From assembly GCF_003182195.1 (NCBI RefSeq), contig NZ_QGTM01000004.1:62001-126000 (forward strand): a stretch of 64,000 nt of DNA, read 5' to 3'. The position numbers and the translations under genes are program-made. Below, in pieces: positions 9,176-33,676 of this stretch; position 1 is the first letter of the stretch, and each line of letters starts with the position of its first letter. This DNA comes from Halomonas sp. A11-A. Its GTDB lineage: Bacteria; Pseudomonadota; Gammaproteobacteria; Pseudomonadales; Halomonadaceae. Under the pieces are notes generated by a model. It did not search any database, was not told the DNA's origin, and saw only the letters and a list, made by a program, of their open reading frames with translations.

Positions 9176-9853
9176 TCAGCGCGTCAGGCGGCCCCGGGAA
9201 AAGCTGCCCAGCGCCACCTCGTAGGAGCGCTGGATATGGTCATCCATCAGGGCGCGCGCGCCCCGGGCATCGCGCTCGAGGGCCAGCGCCACCAGCTCGT
9301 CATGCTGGGCATCGAGCACCCGGCGGACCTCCGGCGCCTCCGGTGCCAGGCGGCGGTAGCGGTCGAACTGGTCGTGGAGCTGCTCGACGAAGCGCAGCAG
9401 CCAGGCCGAGCCGCAGGGCGCGACCAGAGTGCGATGAAAGCGCCCGTGTAGGCGCTCCCACTCATCGCCACTCTCCGGCGCCTGGTCGGCGCGCTTCAGG
9501 CGATGGGCCGCGGCGAGCAGTTCCGACTCCCACTCGGCATCGCCCCGGGCGATCGCCCGCTCCAGCGCCATGCCCTCCAGCTCGCGGCGCATCCCGGCGA
9601 TGTCGTCCAGTTCGTCGCGCTCCAGCCTGGGCACGCGAAAGCCGCGCTGATTCTCCTGGATCAGCAGCCCGTAGGCCGCGAGACGGTTCAGGGCCTCGCG
9701 CAGCGGGCTCAGCCCGACGTCGTAGCGCGCCTTGAGCGAGCTGATCGCCACCTTCTCCCCCGCCTCGAACCGCCCGTTGACCAGGTCCTGCCGCAGGGTG
9801 TCGTAGATGCGGCTGGATGTGGTCATGCGTCCCTTCCGTTTAGGTATGGCCAT
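9176..9853 (-). CDS. GntR family (FCD domain) transcriptional regulator
   Basis: The 225-residue protein has an N-terminal winged helix typical of GntR regulators (SSRIYDTLRQDLVNGRFEAG, then LSPLREALNRLAAYGLL) and a C-terminal all-helical FCD ligand-binding domain with conserved metal-ligand positions (ELEGMALERA, HGRFHRTLV, HDELVAL). Such proteins usually bind organic acids and repress neighbouring catabolic or transport genes. Two starts are possible: ATG at 9851-9853 with GAGGAGG upstream, or ATG at 9824-9826 with GGAAGGGA. It is divergent from chrA, and a palindrome found in front of chrA and of the TRAP genes is its likely operator. The ligand is unknown. Confidence 0.88.
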   Translation of the reverse strand: MAIPKRKGRMTTSSRIYDTLRQDLVNGRFEAGEKVAISSLKARYDVGLSPLREALNRLAAYGLLIQENQRGFRVPRLERDELDDIAGMRRELEGMALERAIARGDAEWESELLAAAHRLKRADQAPESGDEWERLHGRFHRTLVAPCGSAWLLRFVEQLHDQFDRYRRLAPEAPEVRRVLDAQHDELVALALERDARGARALMDDHIQRSYEVALGSFSRGRLTR

Positions 9854-9885
9854 TTCCCCTCCTCGACGTCCGCTCCCGTCAACCC

Positions 9886-9915
9886 TTGACGCTCCTCTCC
9901 GCGCCGCCCTATAGT
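9886..9915 (+). promoter_or_regulatory. Candidate sigma70 promoter for the split chrA genes
   Basis: TTGACG at 9886-9891 and TATAGT at 9910-9915 are separated by 18 bases. The site lies in the divergent region between the GntR gene and chrA, about 95 bases upstream of the chrA start, and only 33 bases from the GntR start codon, so binding of the regulator here could affect both directions. Confidence 0.55.
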
Positions 9916-9926
9916 CTCTCAGACAA

Positions 9927-21855: not shown

Positions 21856-22053
21856 TCAGTCATCGTGGCCGGAGGTGGCCTCCTCGCCCTTCTCGCGCTG
21901 GATGCGCTGGTAGATCTCCTCGCGGTGCACGGCGACGTCCTTGGGGGCATTGACGCCAATCCGGACCTGATTCCCCTTGACGCCCAGCACCGTCACGGTG
22001 ATGTCATCTCCGATCATCAGGGTCTCGCCGACTCGGCGGGTCAGGATGAGCAT
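21856..22053 (-). CDS. csrA: Carbon storage regulator CsrA/RsmA
   Basis: CsrA is a dimeric RNA-binding protein that represses or stabilises mRNAs by binding GGA motifs around ribosome sites. The 65-residue protein starts [16 protein letters not shown] and keeps Leu4, Arg6 and the RNA-contacting Arg44 in [11 protein letters not shown] longer frame extends upstream, but the MLILTR start is universal. It lies between lysC and tRNA-Ser, as in Pseudomonas. The small RNA candidate at 31967-32135, with ten GGA motifs, is a likely antagonist. Confidence 0.98.
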
Positions 22054-28629: not shown

Positions 28630-31212
28630 ATGTCACAGGCCACAAGCCCCTCTCATACCCCCATGATGGCGCAGTACCTGAAGATCAAGCGCGACCACCC
28701 CGACGTGCTGCTCTTCTACCGCATGGGCGACTTCTACGAGCTCTTCTTCGACGACGCCCGGCGCGCGGCGGCGCTGCTTGACATCACCCTGACCCAGCGC
28801 GGCCAGTCGGCCGGCAAGCCGATCCCCATGGCCGGGGTCCCCTACCACAGCGCCGAGGGGTACCTCGCGCGCCTGGTGGCGGCCGGCGAGTCGGTGGCGA
28901 TCTGCGAGCAGATCGGCGACCCGGCCACCAGCAAGGGGCCGGTGGAGCGGCGCGTGGTGCGCATCGTCACCCCCGGCACCCTCTACGACGAGGCGCTGCT
29001 CGACGCCCGCCGCGACAACCTGCTGGTGGCCGTGCACGCCGCCGGCGAGCGCATGGGCCTCGCCTGGCTGGAGCTCTCCAGCGGGCGCTTCAGCGTGCTG
29101 GAAGTCGAGGGTGAAGGCGAGATGCTGGCCGAGCTGCAGCGCCTCGACCCCGCCGAGCTGCTGGTGGCCGAGAGCCAGGACCTGCCCCCCGCCCTGGAGG
29201 GCCGGCGCGGCCTGCGCCGCCAGAGCGACTGGCTGTTCGACCTGGAGAGCGCCACCCGCCTGCTGTGCGACCAGTTCCGAGTCCAGGACCTGCGCGGCTT
29301 CGGCTGCGCCCACCTCACCGCCGCCCTCACCGCTGCCGGCGTGCTGATCGAGTACGCCCGGGACACCCAGCGCTCGCGCCTGCCCCATGTCACCGCCATC
29401 GGCGTGGAGAGCCGCGACGATGCCGTAGTGATCGACGCCGCCAGCCGCCGCAACCTGGAGATCGACATCAACCTCGGGGGCAGCGGCGACAACACCCTGG
29501 CCAGCGTGCTCGACACCACCGCCACGGCCATGGGCTCGCGGCTGCTCAAGCGCTGGCTCAACCGCCCGCTGCGCGACCGCGAGCGGGTGCAGGCCCGCCA
29601 GGCCGCGGTGGCGCTGCTGCTCGAGGCCGAGGGGTTCGTGGCGCTGCGCGAGTCGCTCAAGGCGATCGGCGACGTGGAACGCATCCTGGCGCGGGTCGCC
29701 CTCTACAGCGCCCGCCCGCGGGACCTGGCCCGGCTGCGCGACGCCTTCAACGCCCTGCCCGAGCTCGAGGCATCGCTTGTCGACTATCCCGAGGGCACGG
29801 CGCTTGACGAGCTCCGGCGCCATATCCGCCCCTACCCGGCGCTCGCCGATACCCTGACCCGCGCCCTGATCGAGAACCCGCCGGTGGTAATTCGCGACGG
29901 CGGGGTGATCGCCGAGGGCTTCGACGCCGAGCTCGACGAACACCGCGGCCTGGCCGAGCATGCAGGCGACTATCTGGTGAGGCTGGAGACCCGGGAGCGC
30001 GAGCGCACCGGCCTACCCGGTCTCAAGGTGGGCTACAACCGGGTCCACGGCTACTACATCGAGATCCCCCGCGCCCAGGCCAGGGACGTCCCGGCGGACT
30101 ACGTGCGCCGCCAGACCCTGAAGAACGCCGAGCGCTTCATCATCCCCGAGCTCAAGGAGTTCGAGGACAAGGCGCTGTCGGCCAAGTCCCGGGCACTCGC
30201 CCGGGAGAAGCTGCTCTACGACGGCCTGCTCGACACCCTCAACGCCGAGCTCGACGCCCTGCAGGCCAGCGGCCGCGCACTGGCCGCCCTGGACGTACTG
30301 TGCGCCTTCGCCGAGCGCGCCCAGGCGCTGGATTTCGTGCGGCCGCGGCTGGCCGAGACCCCCGGCATCGCCATCCGGGGCGGCCGCCACCCGGTGGTGG
30401 AGCAGGTCTCCGACGCCCCCTTCGTGCCCAACGACCTGGTGATGGGCGACGACCGCCGCATGCTGGTGATCACCGGCCCCAACATGGGGGGCAAGTCCAC
30501 CTTCATGCGTCAGGCGGCGCTGATCGTGCTGCTCGCCCATACCGGCAGCTTCGTGCCGGCGGACGCCGCCGAGATCGGCCCGGTGGACCGCATCTTCACC
30601 CGCATCGGCTCCTCGGACGACCTGGCTGGCGGGCGCTCCACCTTCATGGTGGAGATGACCGAGACCGCCAACATCCTGCACAACGCCACCGACCACAGCC
30701 TGGTGCTGATGGACGAGATCGGCCGCGGCACCAGCACCTTCGACGGCCTCTCGCTGGCCTGGGCCAGCGCCGAGCAGCTGACGCGCACCCGCGCCTTCAC
30801 CCTGTTCGCCACCCACTACTTCGAGATGACCGCCCTGCCCGAGCAGGCCGAGGGGGTGGCCAACGTGCACCTGACGGCCGCCGAGCACCGTGACGGCATC
30901 GTCTTCATGCACCGCGTGGAGGAGGGCCCGGCGAGCCAGAGCTACGGCCTGCAGGTGGCCCAGCTCGCCGGCGTGCCCCAGGGGGTGATCGCCCGGGCCC
31001 GGGAGAAGCTCGCCCAGCTGGAGCAGCAGGAGGTGGACCAGGGTAGCCGGACCGCGCAGCGCCTCGGTGACCGTCCCCCGATGCCGCAGCAGAACGACCT
31101 CTTCGCCAGCGCCCCCCACCCGCTGGTGGAAGAGCTCGGCGGCCTGGCCCTGGATGACCTGACGCCGCGCCAGGCCCTGGCGCTGCTCTACCGCTGGCGG
31201 GAGTCATTGTAA
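28630..31212 (+). CDS. mutS: DNA mismatch repair protein MutS
   Basis: MutS recognises mismatches and small loops and recruits MutL. The 860-residue protein is full length. The N-terminal mismatch-binding domain has the Phe-X-Glu motif at F35-Y-E37 ([13 protein letters not shown]); the core and clamp domains follow; the ATPase has Walker [10 protein letters not shown] at 616-624, [21 protein letters not shown], Walker [17 protein letters not shown] and FATHYFEMT. The C-terminal [18 protein letters not shown] is the MutS oligomerisation tail. The ATG at 28630 is preceded by AGGGAG. The recX-recA-pncC-mutS-fdxA order matches Pseudomonas. Confidence 0.98.
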
Positions 31213-31535: not shown

Positions 31536-31859
31536 ATGACATTCGTCGTCACCGAGAACTGCATCAAGTGCAAGTACACCGACTGTGTCGAGGTGTGCCC
31601 GGTGGACTGTTTCTATGAAGGCCCCAACTTCCTGGTGATCCACCCCGACGAGTGCATCGACTGCGCCCTGTGCGAGCCGGAGTGTCCCGCCGAGGCGATC
31701 TTCTCGGAAGACGAATTGCCGGAGGGCCAGGAGCCGTTCATCGAGATCAATGCCGAGCTCGCCGAGGTATGGCCCAACATCAGCGAGAAGAAGGACCCGC
31801 TGCCCGACGCCGAGGAGTGGGACGGCAAGCCGGGCAAGCTCGAGCAGCTGGAGCGCTGA
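31536..31859 (+). CDS. fdxA: Seven-iron ferredoxin FdxA
   Basis: FdxA is a small electron carrier with one 3Fe-4S and one 4Fe-4S cluster. The 107-residue protein starts [25 protein letters not shown] (cysteines 9, 12, 17, 21 and 25) and has the second set C40, C43, C46 and C50 in [12 protein letters not shown], as in Azotobacter-type ferredoxin I. The C-terminal extension with [20 protein letters not shown] is typical. AGGGAGAG precedes the start. In Pseudomonas the same gene sits beside rsmZ, matching the small RNA candidate downstream. Confidence 0.97.
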
Positions 31860-31895: not shown

Positions 31896-31934
31896 AAAAA
31901 GGAACGCCGAATGTCTCGCGACATTCGGCGTTCC
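31896..31934. terminator. Perfect 14-base-pair hairpin between fdxA and the small RNA
   Basis: GGAACGCCGAATGT (31901-31914) and ACATTCGGCGTTCC (31921-31934) form a perfect stem with a six-base loop. On the minus strand it is followed by five T (31896-31900), a strong rho-independent signal; on the plus strand the tail is only TGCTTCTG. It probably terminates fdxA and serves as a second stop for minus-strand transcripts. Confidence 0.8.
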
Positions 31935-31966
31935 TGCTTCTGCCTGCCATGCTGGAGAACACCGGC

Positions 31967-32135
31967 AAAAAAGGCGGCCCGCAGGCCGCCCGCTCCAAGC
32001 TGTTCCTTGAGCGGCTCCCTCCGCCCGACTCCCGTGATGCCTTCCCTGCCCGGAAGCAGCCTCCTGCCGCACCTGGCGCATCACTCAGCATCCCGTTGCA
32101 TCCTGCCGGGAGCAGCAATGCTGCCCCCTTGTCCC
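31967..32135 (-). ncRNA. Candidate CsrA-sequestering small RNA (RsmZ/CsrB type)
   Basis: A minus-strand transcript of about 169 bases is predicted from a promoter-like site at 32142-32169 to a terminator with stem GGCGGCC/GGCCGCC (31973-31990) and six T (31967-31972). It contains ten GGA motifs, several as AGGA, CGGGA or AAGGA. Several sit in foldable hairpins, for example CCGCTCAAG-loop-CTTGGAGCGG near the 3' end and a TGATGC/GCATCA arm. No convincing open reading frame with a ribosome site fits the strand. Pseudomonas carries rsmZ next to fdxA in the same mutS-fdxA context, and csrA is encoded in this window. No clear GacA box (TGTAAG-N6-CTTACA) was found upstream. The family call is inference. 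Confidence 0.65.
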
Positions 32136-32141
32136 GAGTTC

Positions 32142-32169
32142 ATTGTGGCAGAGCTGCATTGCAACACAA
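32142..32169 (-). promoter_or_regulatory. Candidate promoter of the small RNA
   Basis: On the minus strand TTGTGT (32164-32169) and CACAAT (32142-32147) are spaced by 16 bases; transcription would start near 32135 with GGGAC. Confidence 0.45.
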
Positions 32170-32252
32170 GCGGGACCAACGGCGACCGACCTCGACCGGC
32201 GCGCTGGCTCAGCAGCGGGACTCCAAAAAAACACGTTTAATAACATATTGTT

Positions 32253-32285
32253 AAAAAAAGACCGACGCCAAAGGCATCGGTCTTT
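32253..32285 (-). terminator. Rho-independent terminator of eno
   Basis: AAAGACCGA (32257-32265) and TCGGTCTTT (32277-32285) pair around a short loop, followed on the minus strand by a run of seven T. It lies 80 bases after the eno stop. Confidence 0.88.
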
Positions 32286-32365
32286 CCGCTGAACCTGAGC
32301 AAATCTCTTCGCCAAATTGTCAGCGATTTCCTACACGGGTTCCCGCCTCAAGCAACAGCGTTCGC

Positions 32366-33676
<1,311 letters not shown>

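Follow-up and report, generated by a model that had tools for sequence, protein, structure and literature searches.

A candidate Gac-controlled, RsmZ/CsrB-type small RNA beside fdxA in Halomonadaceae

The interval between the fdxA and eno genes of Halomonas sp. A11-A raises the question of whether it encodes a regulatory RNA and, if so, of what kind. The sequence-only reading, made from the letters and open reading frames, had placed a GGA-rich RNA there and proposed that it is an RsmZ-type antagonist of CsrA. The locus was analyzed within a 64-kb stretch of the genome, the whole of which is referred to below as the window. In the window, the end of the small RNA gene lies 108 nt from the fdxA stop codon, and its 5′ start (32135) is an inferred position, good to a few bases. 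The genes are arranged as follows:

28630..31212, plus strand: mutS, beyond fdxA, start approximate (TIGR01070, 1188 bits)
31536..31859, plus strand: fdxA, the convergent neighbor (NF045490, 179 bits, above the cut-off)
31967..32135, minus strand: small RNA gene, ~169 nt (10 GGA; conservation and covariation across Halomonadaceae)
32366..33658, minus strand: eno, the upstream neighbor on the same strand (TIGR01060, 667 bits, above the cut-off)

The ten GGA motifs first noticed in the ~169 nt of the minus strand were confirmed by a count over 32135-31967. Dinucleotide shuffles of the 169-nt RNA contained 5.5 ± 1.6 GGA, with ten or more in 0.5% of 2000 shuffles. Throughout the 64 kb, 169-nt segments with at least ten GGA were absent from the plus strand and numbered 54 of 63,831 on the minus strand; 29 of the 54 represent the small RNA and 25 a single other place (5′ ends 9924-9900). 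Because this second place equals the count of ten, the number of GGA motifs taken alone is unusual, not unique, and only suggestive. The other place (9732-9924, minus strand), the sole further one where the window reaches this count, holds a leader and the start of an ORF which, by eye, resembles a GntR-type regulator. It does not appear to be a second small RNA; the GGA-rich leader is a possible CsrA target.

A BLAST search with 32345-31960 gave matches in 88 of the 90 genomes of the genus, mostly spanning the promoter and the RNA alone. FdxA was found in 199 of the 201 family genomes, and 80 named contigs also had FdxA matches. The 186 distinct stretches downstream of fdxA that were examined include Pseudomonas and others and come from overlapping genomes, so the counts do not express a prevalence. 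An iterated profile picked up 101 of these stretches; 94 matches span the whole RNA, and 87 remained once near-duplicates had been removed. The comparison of sequences downstream of fdxA recovered the RNA in 94 full-length homologs, and it is missing from the short fdxA-eno gaps of genus g4. Alignment A1 comprises 67 of the 87 non-redundant homologs, 20 having been omitted by hand (L041, L089, L095, L098, L105, L119, L124, L132, L133, L139, L153, L168, L170, L175, L183, L184, L188, L189, L190 and L194).

Within the 67 homologs, conservation is located on the GGA triplets. The ten GGA sites have a mean conservation of 0.92, compared to 0.38 for the 94 other triplets; in nine columns GGA is present in 84-100% of the sequences, and in the tenth (32022-32020) in 64%. 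All 67 homologs exceed the mean GGA count of their own dinucleotide shuffles (on average 10.2 versus 6.0). RNAalifold applied to A1 gave 28 consensus pairs; for 23 of them, both bases are altered in one sequence or more. The consensus helices are paired in 95.9% of cells and slid partners in 36-49%, a comparison which is flattered because the structure came from the same alignment. The covariation value was 0.434, compared to 0.211 in shuffles, two-sided changes were found in 238 cells versus 59 (a large excess), and none of 500 shuffles was as good on any of five measures; the shuffles in this test do not keep the relatedness of the sequences. The 5′ segment folds with at least five pairs in 67 of 67 homologs, a count made without a shuffled control.

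The fold of the window's own RNA, predicted from the single sequence, is mildly better than that of shuffles (z -1.6; 15 of 200 shuffles as good). When GGA motifs were counted in the minimum free energy (MFE) structure, five of the ten were wholly unpaired, and some of the conserved triplets lie in hairpin loops, in keeping with the proposed type of RNA. In the predicted ensemble, eight of the ten GGA average 0.59-0.82 in unpaired probability, compared to 0.38 over all bases, while for those at 32093-32091 and 31996-31994 pairing is the more probable state.

Such a region could also encode a small protein, or be a spacer that is rich in GGA and GC by chance. The earlier statement that no good ORF fits was only partly upheld: the small RNA in the window is overlapped by GC-rich ORFs, the longest of 199 aa, and none is kept open widely among the homologs. 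The internal lengths of the 67 homologs are spread evenly over the residues modulo 3 (23/21/23), and at most 34 of the 67 are open throughout in any frame of either strand, which argues that the region is not a conserved coding sequence; conservation follows the GGA triplets and helices, not a reading frame. The single-sequence fold, only slightly better than that of shuffles, and the second place with ten GGA would suit a chance spacer, but the covarying helices, the conserved terminator, the conserved GacA box described below and the presence in 16 of 24 genera contradict this explanation already, and we give it hardly any weight.

We next turn to the ends of the RNA and the sequences flanking it:

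31900..31935, minus strand: second strong hairpin and T run, in the space separating fdxA from the small RNA (terminator scan)
31967..31991, minus strand: intrinsic terminator of the small RNA (stem fully paired, 100% of cells, in 67 sequences)
32142..32147, minus strand: -10-like element CACAAT (sequence and conservation)
32164..32169, minus strand: poor -35-like element TTGTGT (sequence)
32253..32285, minus strand: eno terminator, between eno and the small RNA (read from the sequence)

The strong terminator of the sequence-only reading was recovered as a GC stem followed by six T (31991-31972, eight pairs, seven of them G-C). The promoter-like site did not hold as a consensus site, since a sigma-70 consensus scan of the minus strand at the small RNA found none, although CACAAT is conserved: the ten bases around it (32150-32141) have a mean identity of 0.89 in 94 sequences and are among the best conserved parts of the locus. 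At least 18 of the genus-level BLAST matches, among those listed, start at query positions 175-177 (32171-32169), near TTGTGT. The hairpin at 31900-31935 has 16 pairs and is either a back-up terminator of the small RNA or the fdxA terminator. The eno terminator is absent from the automated terminator list.

Two further elements were found upstream of the putative promoter:

32241..32253, minus strand: tentative IHF-like site TAACAATATGTTA, between box and promoter (motif search)
32318..32335, minus strand: GacA/UvrY box TGTAGGAAATCGCTGACA, 10 of 12 consensus bases (plus-strand reading TGTCAGCGATTTCCTACA)

The UvrY consensus is TGTAAG-N6-CTTACA, with 12 specified bases (PMC4682653). The view that no clear GacA box is present was thus wrong. 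When up to three mismatches were allowed, six boxes were found in the window against 3.5 expected, and only that at 32318-32335 has as few as two; the scan with up to three mismatches is the fair test, because the narrower pattern was picked after the site had been seen. In each homolog the box was sought from 60 nt inside eno down to the RNA. The best upstream box had 0, 1, 2, 3 or 4 mismatches in 14, 28, 38, 11 and 3 of the 94 full-length homologs, respectively, and a box with 0-2 mismatches was present in 73 of the 87 non-redundant homologs, compared to 18 of 1740 mononucleotide-shuffled upstream regions.

The median distance from the center of the box to the RNA start is 183 bp (range 170-204), and 91 of the 94 homologs have a box with at most three mismatches at 168-205 bp. 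In five Pseudomonas rsmZ genes, where the Rfam match was used to set the 5′ end of the RNA, the corresponding distances were 178.5, 181.5, 171.5, 182.5 and 183.5. In the conservation profile of the 94 sequences, the box, the -10 element and the RNA stand out as islands, and the parts between them are less conserved except for the eno terminator. Between box and promoter, 46 of the 94 homologs contain an IHF-like site that departs from the consensus at no more than one base, as do 101 of 940 dinucleotide-shuffled sequences; since the homologs share ancestry, we take this only as a hint. CsrB of E. coli, like RsmZ, contains many GGA motifs; it is longer, with more GGA, and lies at a different locus. 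According to PMC4682653, the UvrY inverted repeat of csrB is centered at -183/-182 and IHF is needed, a likeness to the locus described here.

The genome also encodes the protein partners that such an RNA would need. The presumed binding partner lies in the window:

21856..22053, minus strand: csrA (NF002469, 122 bits)

This gene, to which the proposed action of the RNA had been assigned, is a clear csrA and is single-copy in the genome (one PF02599 match). A GacA-like response regulator is encoded beside uvrC; its best match is NF007018 (UvrY/SirA/GacA) at 275.7 bits, the cut-off being 280 and the next family reaching 146. For the BarA model, the highest score in the genome belongs to a kinase at G000:C1:45928-48186 (622 bits, cut-off 890). 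Thus, csrA co-occurs in the genome with candidates for the Gac/Bar two-component system, the kinase half being less sure because its match falls under the cut-off. The BarA sensor domain PF09984 (sCache_4) was tried as a marker of GacS and rejected, as it has no matches in the genus of the strain, which has the RNA. It matches in 15 genomes of g3, g5, g22 and g24 (E 2e-10 or better), all without a match to the covariance model of the RNA (R1, see below), and 13 weaker matches are in g11 genomes, where an R1 match is present.

How, then, is the RNA related to known Csr/Rsm RNAs? RsmZ is an RNA with many GGA motifs and an intrinsic terminator. Its position beside fdxA in Pseudomonas, on which the sequence-only reading relied, was found in all five loci scanned with Rfam PrrB_RsmZ (RF00166): each match lies 26-105 nt from the fdxA stop codon, on the opposite strand. 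Pseudomonas RsmZ/PrrB therefore resembles the Halomonas RNA in its fdxA neighbor, its convergent orientation and its equal distance from the GacA box; it differs in size (Rfam matches of 125-134 nt compared to ~169 nt) and in the neighbor on the far side, which is eno here and rpoS in Pseudomonas. The legend of Figure 1C in PMC4353343, which names fdxA, mutS and rpoS among the genes of the rsmZ region, agrees with this arrangement.

The Rfam models, by contrast with these positional likenesses, do not place the RNA in the PrrB_RsmZ family. The proposed search with the RsmZ and CsrB models failed to recognize the window RNA either at the gathering threshold, where no Rsm/Csr RNA was reported on it, or under relaxed settings; the CsrB model had no match on it. 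The only relaxed match of Csr type was a piece of CsrC on the hairpin at 31900-31935 (E 6.6), and the relaxed matches in general were low-scoring, under all gathering scores and mostly on the hairpins flanking the small RNA. PrrB_RsmZ likewise matched none of 14 other Halomonadaceae loci and none of five Marinomonas and Marinobacter loci. In the reverse direction, R1, a covariance model built from A1, matched two of 20 Pseudomonas loci (E 0.03 and 0.1), both on rsmZ. Outside the family, R1 gave seven weak matches (E 0.03-0.18) in 686 kb, five of which immediately follow fdxA and lie on the minus strand (L015, L026, L052, L055 and L073). In a further stretch, from Marinomonas algarum (L069), a perfect GacA box was observed on the minus strand ~480 nt downstream of fdxA, which suggests that Marinomonas may also have an fdxA-adjacent Csr RNA.

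The mutual blindness of the models, with just two faint recoveries of rsmZ by R1, is what would be expected if a CsrA-sequestering RNA not descended from rsmZ had arisen independently at this locus, or if another Csr RNA had moved in. We consider such an origin rather unlikely, since position, orientation and box spacing equal those of Pseudomonas rsmZ, five of the seven weak R1 matches outside the family fall at the corresponding place, and CsrR2 of Alcanivorax also adjoins a ferredoxin gene (PMC9788540). The RNA is a separate sequence family from PrrB_RsmZ, found here in Halomonadaceae only, and is probably a positional ortholog that has diverged from Pseudomonas RsmZ. An ancestral sponge adjacent to fdxA combined with fast sequence turnover offers the simplest account, and common descent is likely. 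The RsmZ-type reading accordingly stood as regards GGA motifs, helices, box spacing and fdxA position, but not as membership of the Rfam family.

The Alcanivorax dieselolei RNA deserves a closer comparison, made here by description. According to PMC9788540, CsrR2 was detected by dRNA-seq and is a putative CsrA-sequestering RNA adjoining a ferredoxin gene; unlike the Halomonas RNA, it overlaps fdx in antisense, has six unpaired GGA and has hpt as its other neighbor. The same paper proposes a dual function for the overlapping RNA, and the Halomonas RNA, too, is convergent to fdxA. It might regulate by base pairing, or affect fdxA or eno as an antisense or leader RNA, its GGA motifs being incidental. 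This seems very improbable, as the 108 nt separating the RNA end from fdxA contain a second hairpin, eno ends at its own terminator upstream of the small RNA, and conservation is located on the GGA triplets and helices.

Taken with the conserved GGA triplets, the covarying helices, the box at the csrB/rsmZ distance, the position and orientation relative to fdxA as in rsmZ, and the csrA and gacA genes that the genome contains, the comparison makes it highly probable that the locus encodes a Gac-controlled, RsmZ/CsrB-type CsrA sponge of the Halomonadaceae. We infer its transcription, its control by GacA, its binding to CsrA and the consequences of that binding. Phosphorylated GacA would bind the 18-bp inverted repeat ~190 bp upstream and turn on the promoter at ~32145, IHF perhaps bending the DNA between box and promoter. 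An RNA of ~169 nt would be made, stopping at its own terminator, and its ten GGA, several of them in predicted hairpin loops or junctions, would bind CsrA dimers. The RNA would in this way draw CsrA off mRNAs and lift CsrA regulation.

The distribution of the RNA was analyzed with R1. The model gave 191 bits on the window RNA, whose own copy is part of the training set, and matched 161 of the 201 family genomes, in 16 of the 24 genera. The named contigs carrying the RNA belong to Halomonas, Cobetia, Larsenimonas and Modicisalibacter. No R1 match was found in 40 of the 201 genomes, including every sampled genome of eight genera (g3, g4, g5, g14, g18, g19, g22 and g24) and single genomes of other genera (e.g., G126, G096 and G214). 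In Salinicola and other members of g4 (L009, L011, L146-L149) just 88-396 bp separate fdxA from eno and R1 finds nothing there; the RNA is therefore gone from that place. Gaps of 80-396 bp that are devoid of the small RNA were observed in these stretches and in L169, and the Csr RNA of such short-gap genomes is either lost or located elsewhere.

Across the order, 11 of 145 genomes had R1 matches at E values up to 0.01, four of the 11 being Halomonadaceae. At the loci examined for four of the other seven, the 3.2 kb surrounding each contain no gene for FdxA. These four were rejected as relatives: the matches seem, by eye, to be driven by the terminator, and Rfam gave nothing there up to E 0.1. 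Likewise, in the genome of the strain itself R1 gave one full match and six further short matches, all to the terminator end of the model.

A search of this genome for a second Csr RNA with a loose GacA-box pattern gave five places, compared to seven in a reversed control, and these are therefore mostly chance. At the best other one (G000:C1:1644-1661; L208 1501-1518) a GacA-box-like repeat with 11 of 12 consensus bases is followed 23 bp on by a weaker one (9 of 12). The repeats precede an ORF that looks GGDEF-like by eye, with a seemingly interrupted frame. The place was dismissed as a second Csr RNA locus, no GGA-rich intergenic stretch having been noticed there; the repeat is a possible direct target of GacA.

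The RNA seems to be longer in two genera. In Cobetia amphilecti (L036 4520-5432, minus strand) a 723-nt stretch, whose start was taken from the R1 alignment, begins 173 bp after a perfect GacA box. This putative single RNA contains 39 GGA, of which the MFE structure leaves 23 unpaired, and no inner TTTT before the terminator; R1 matches its 3′ end with 63.2 bits and, weakly, its 5′ end with 20.4 bits (E 0.0017). In Larsenimonas, R1 modules are arranged in tandem, three in L020 4492-5227 and L260 643-1378, which come from the same genome, and four in L259 652-1385. The genome scan of this genus gave four matches in each of two genomes and none in a third (G096). There are 26 GGA in 700 nt in L020/L260 and 25 in L259, and no GacA box within two mismatches was found in these stretches. 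The T runs of the inner hairpins in the tandem copies look eroded by eye.

Cobetia and Larsenimonas thus seem to carry longer, multi-module versions of the RNA, which are predicted transcripts. The series of ~169 nt with ten GGA here, 25-26 GGA per 700 nt in Larsenimonas and 39 GGA in 723 nt in Cobetia invites the view that the fdxA locus of Halomonadaceae harbors a modular family of CsrA sponges, in which capacity has grown via duplication of modules and loss of terminators. We hold this view to be evenly balanced between true and false. These long versions are a more surprising lead than the 169-nt RNA itself; if the modular reading is true, they would form a natural series showing how sponge capacity evolves.

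Members of the Halomonadaceae are used for the production of bioplastics and ectoine. Among the matches listed in open-access literature on Halomonas, Chromohalobacter, Cobetia and Halomonadaceae, there is no account of the small RNA, and an earlier mention is possible; the main text of PMC5568370 makes no mention of Halomonas. In Halomonas anticariensis, quorum sensing is reportedly under the control of the GacS/GacA system (PMC4187203). The row for this species in a table of a 2020 review (PMC7366521; column assignment presumed) reads "Unknown" where the partnering small RNA would stand.

The RNA is most likely a new sequence family of an already known kind, the RsmZ/CsrB-type sponge. Its position suggests that the sponge adjacent to fdxA is old within the order, its sequence having changed so rapidly that a whole family escapes the curated RNA models. 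The locus is likely to represent the missing link, the small RNA, of the Gac system in Halomonadaceae.
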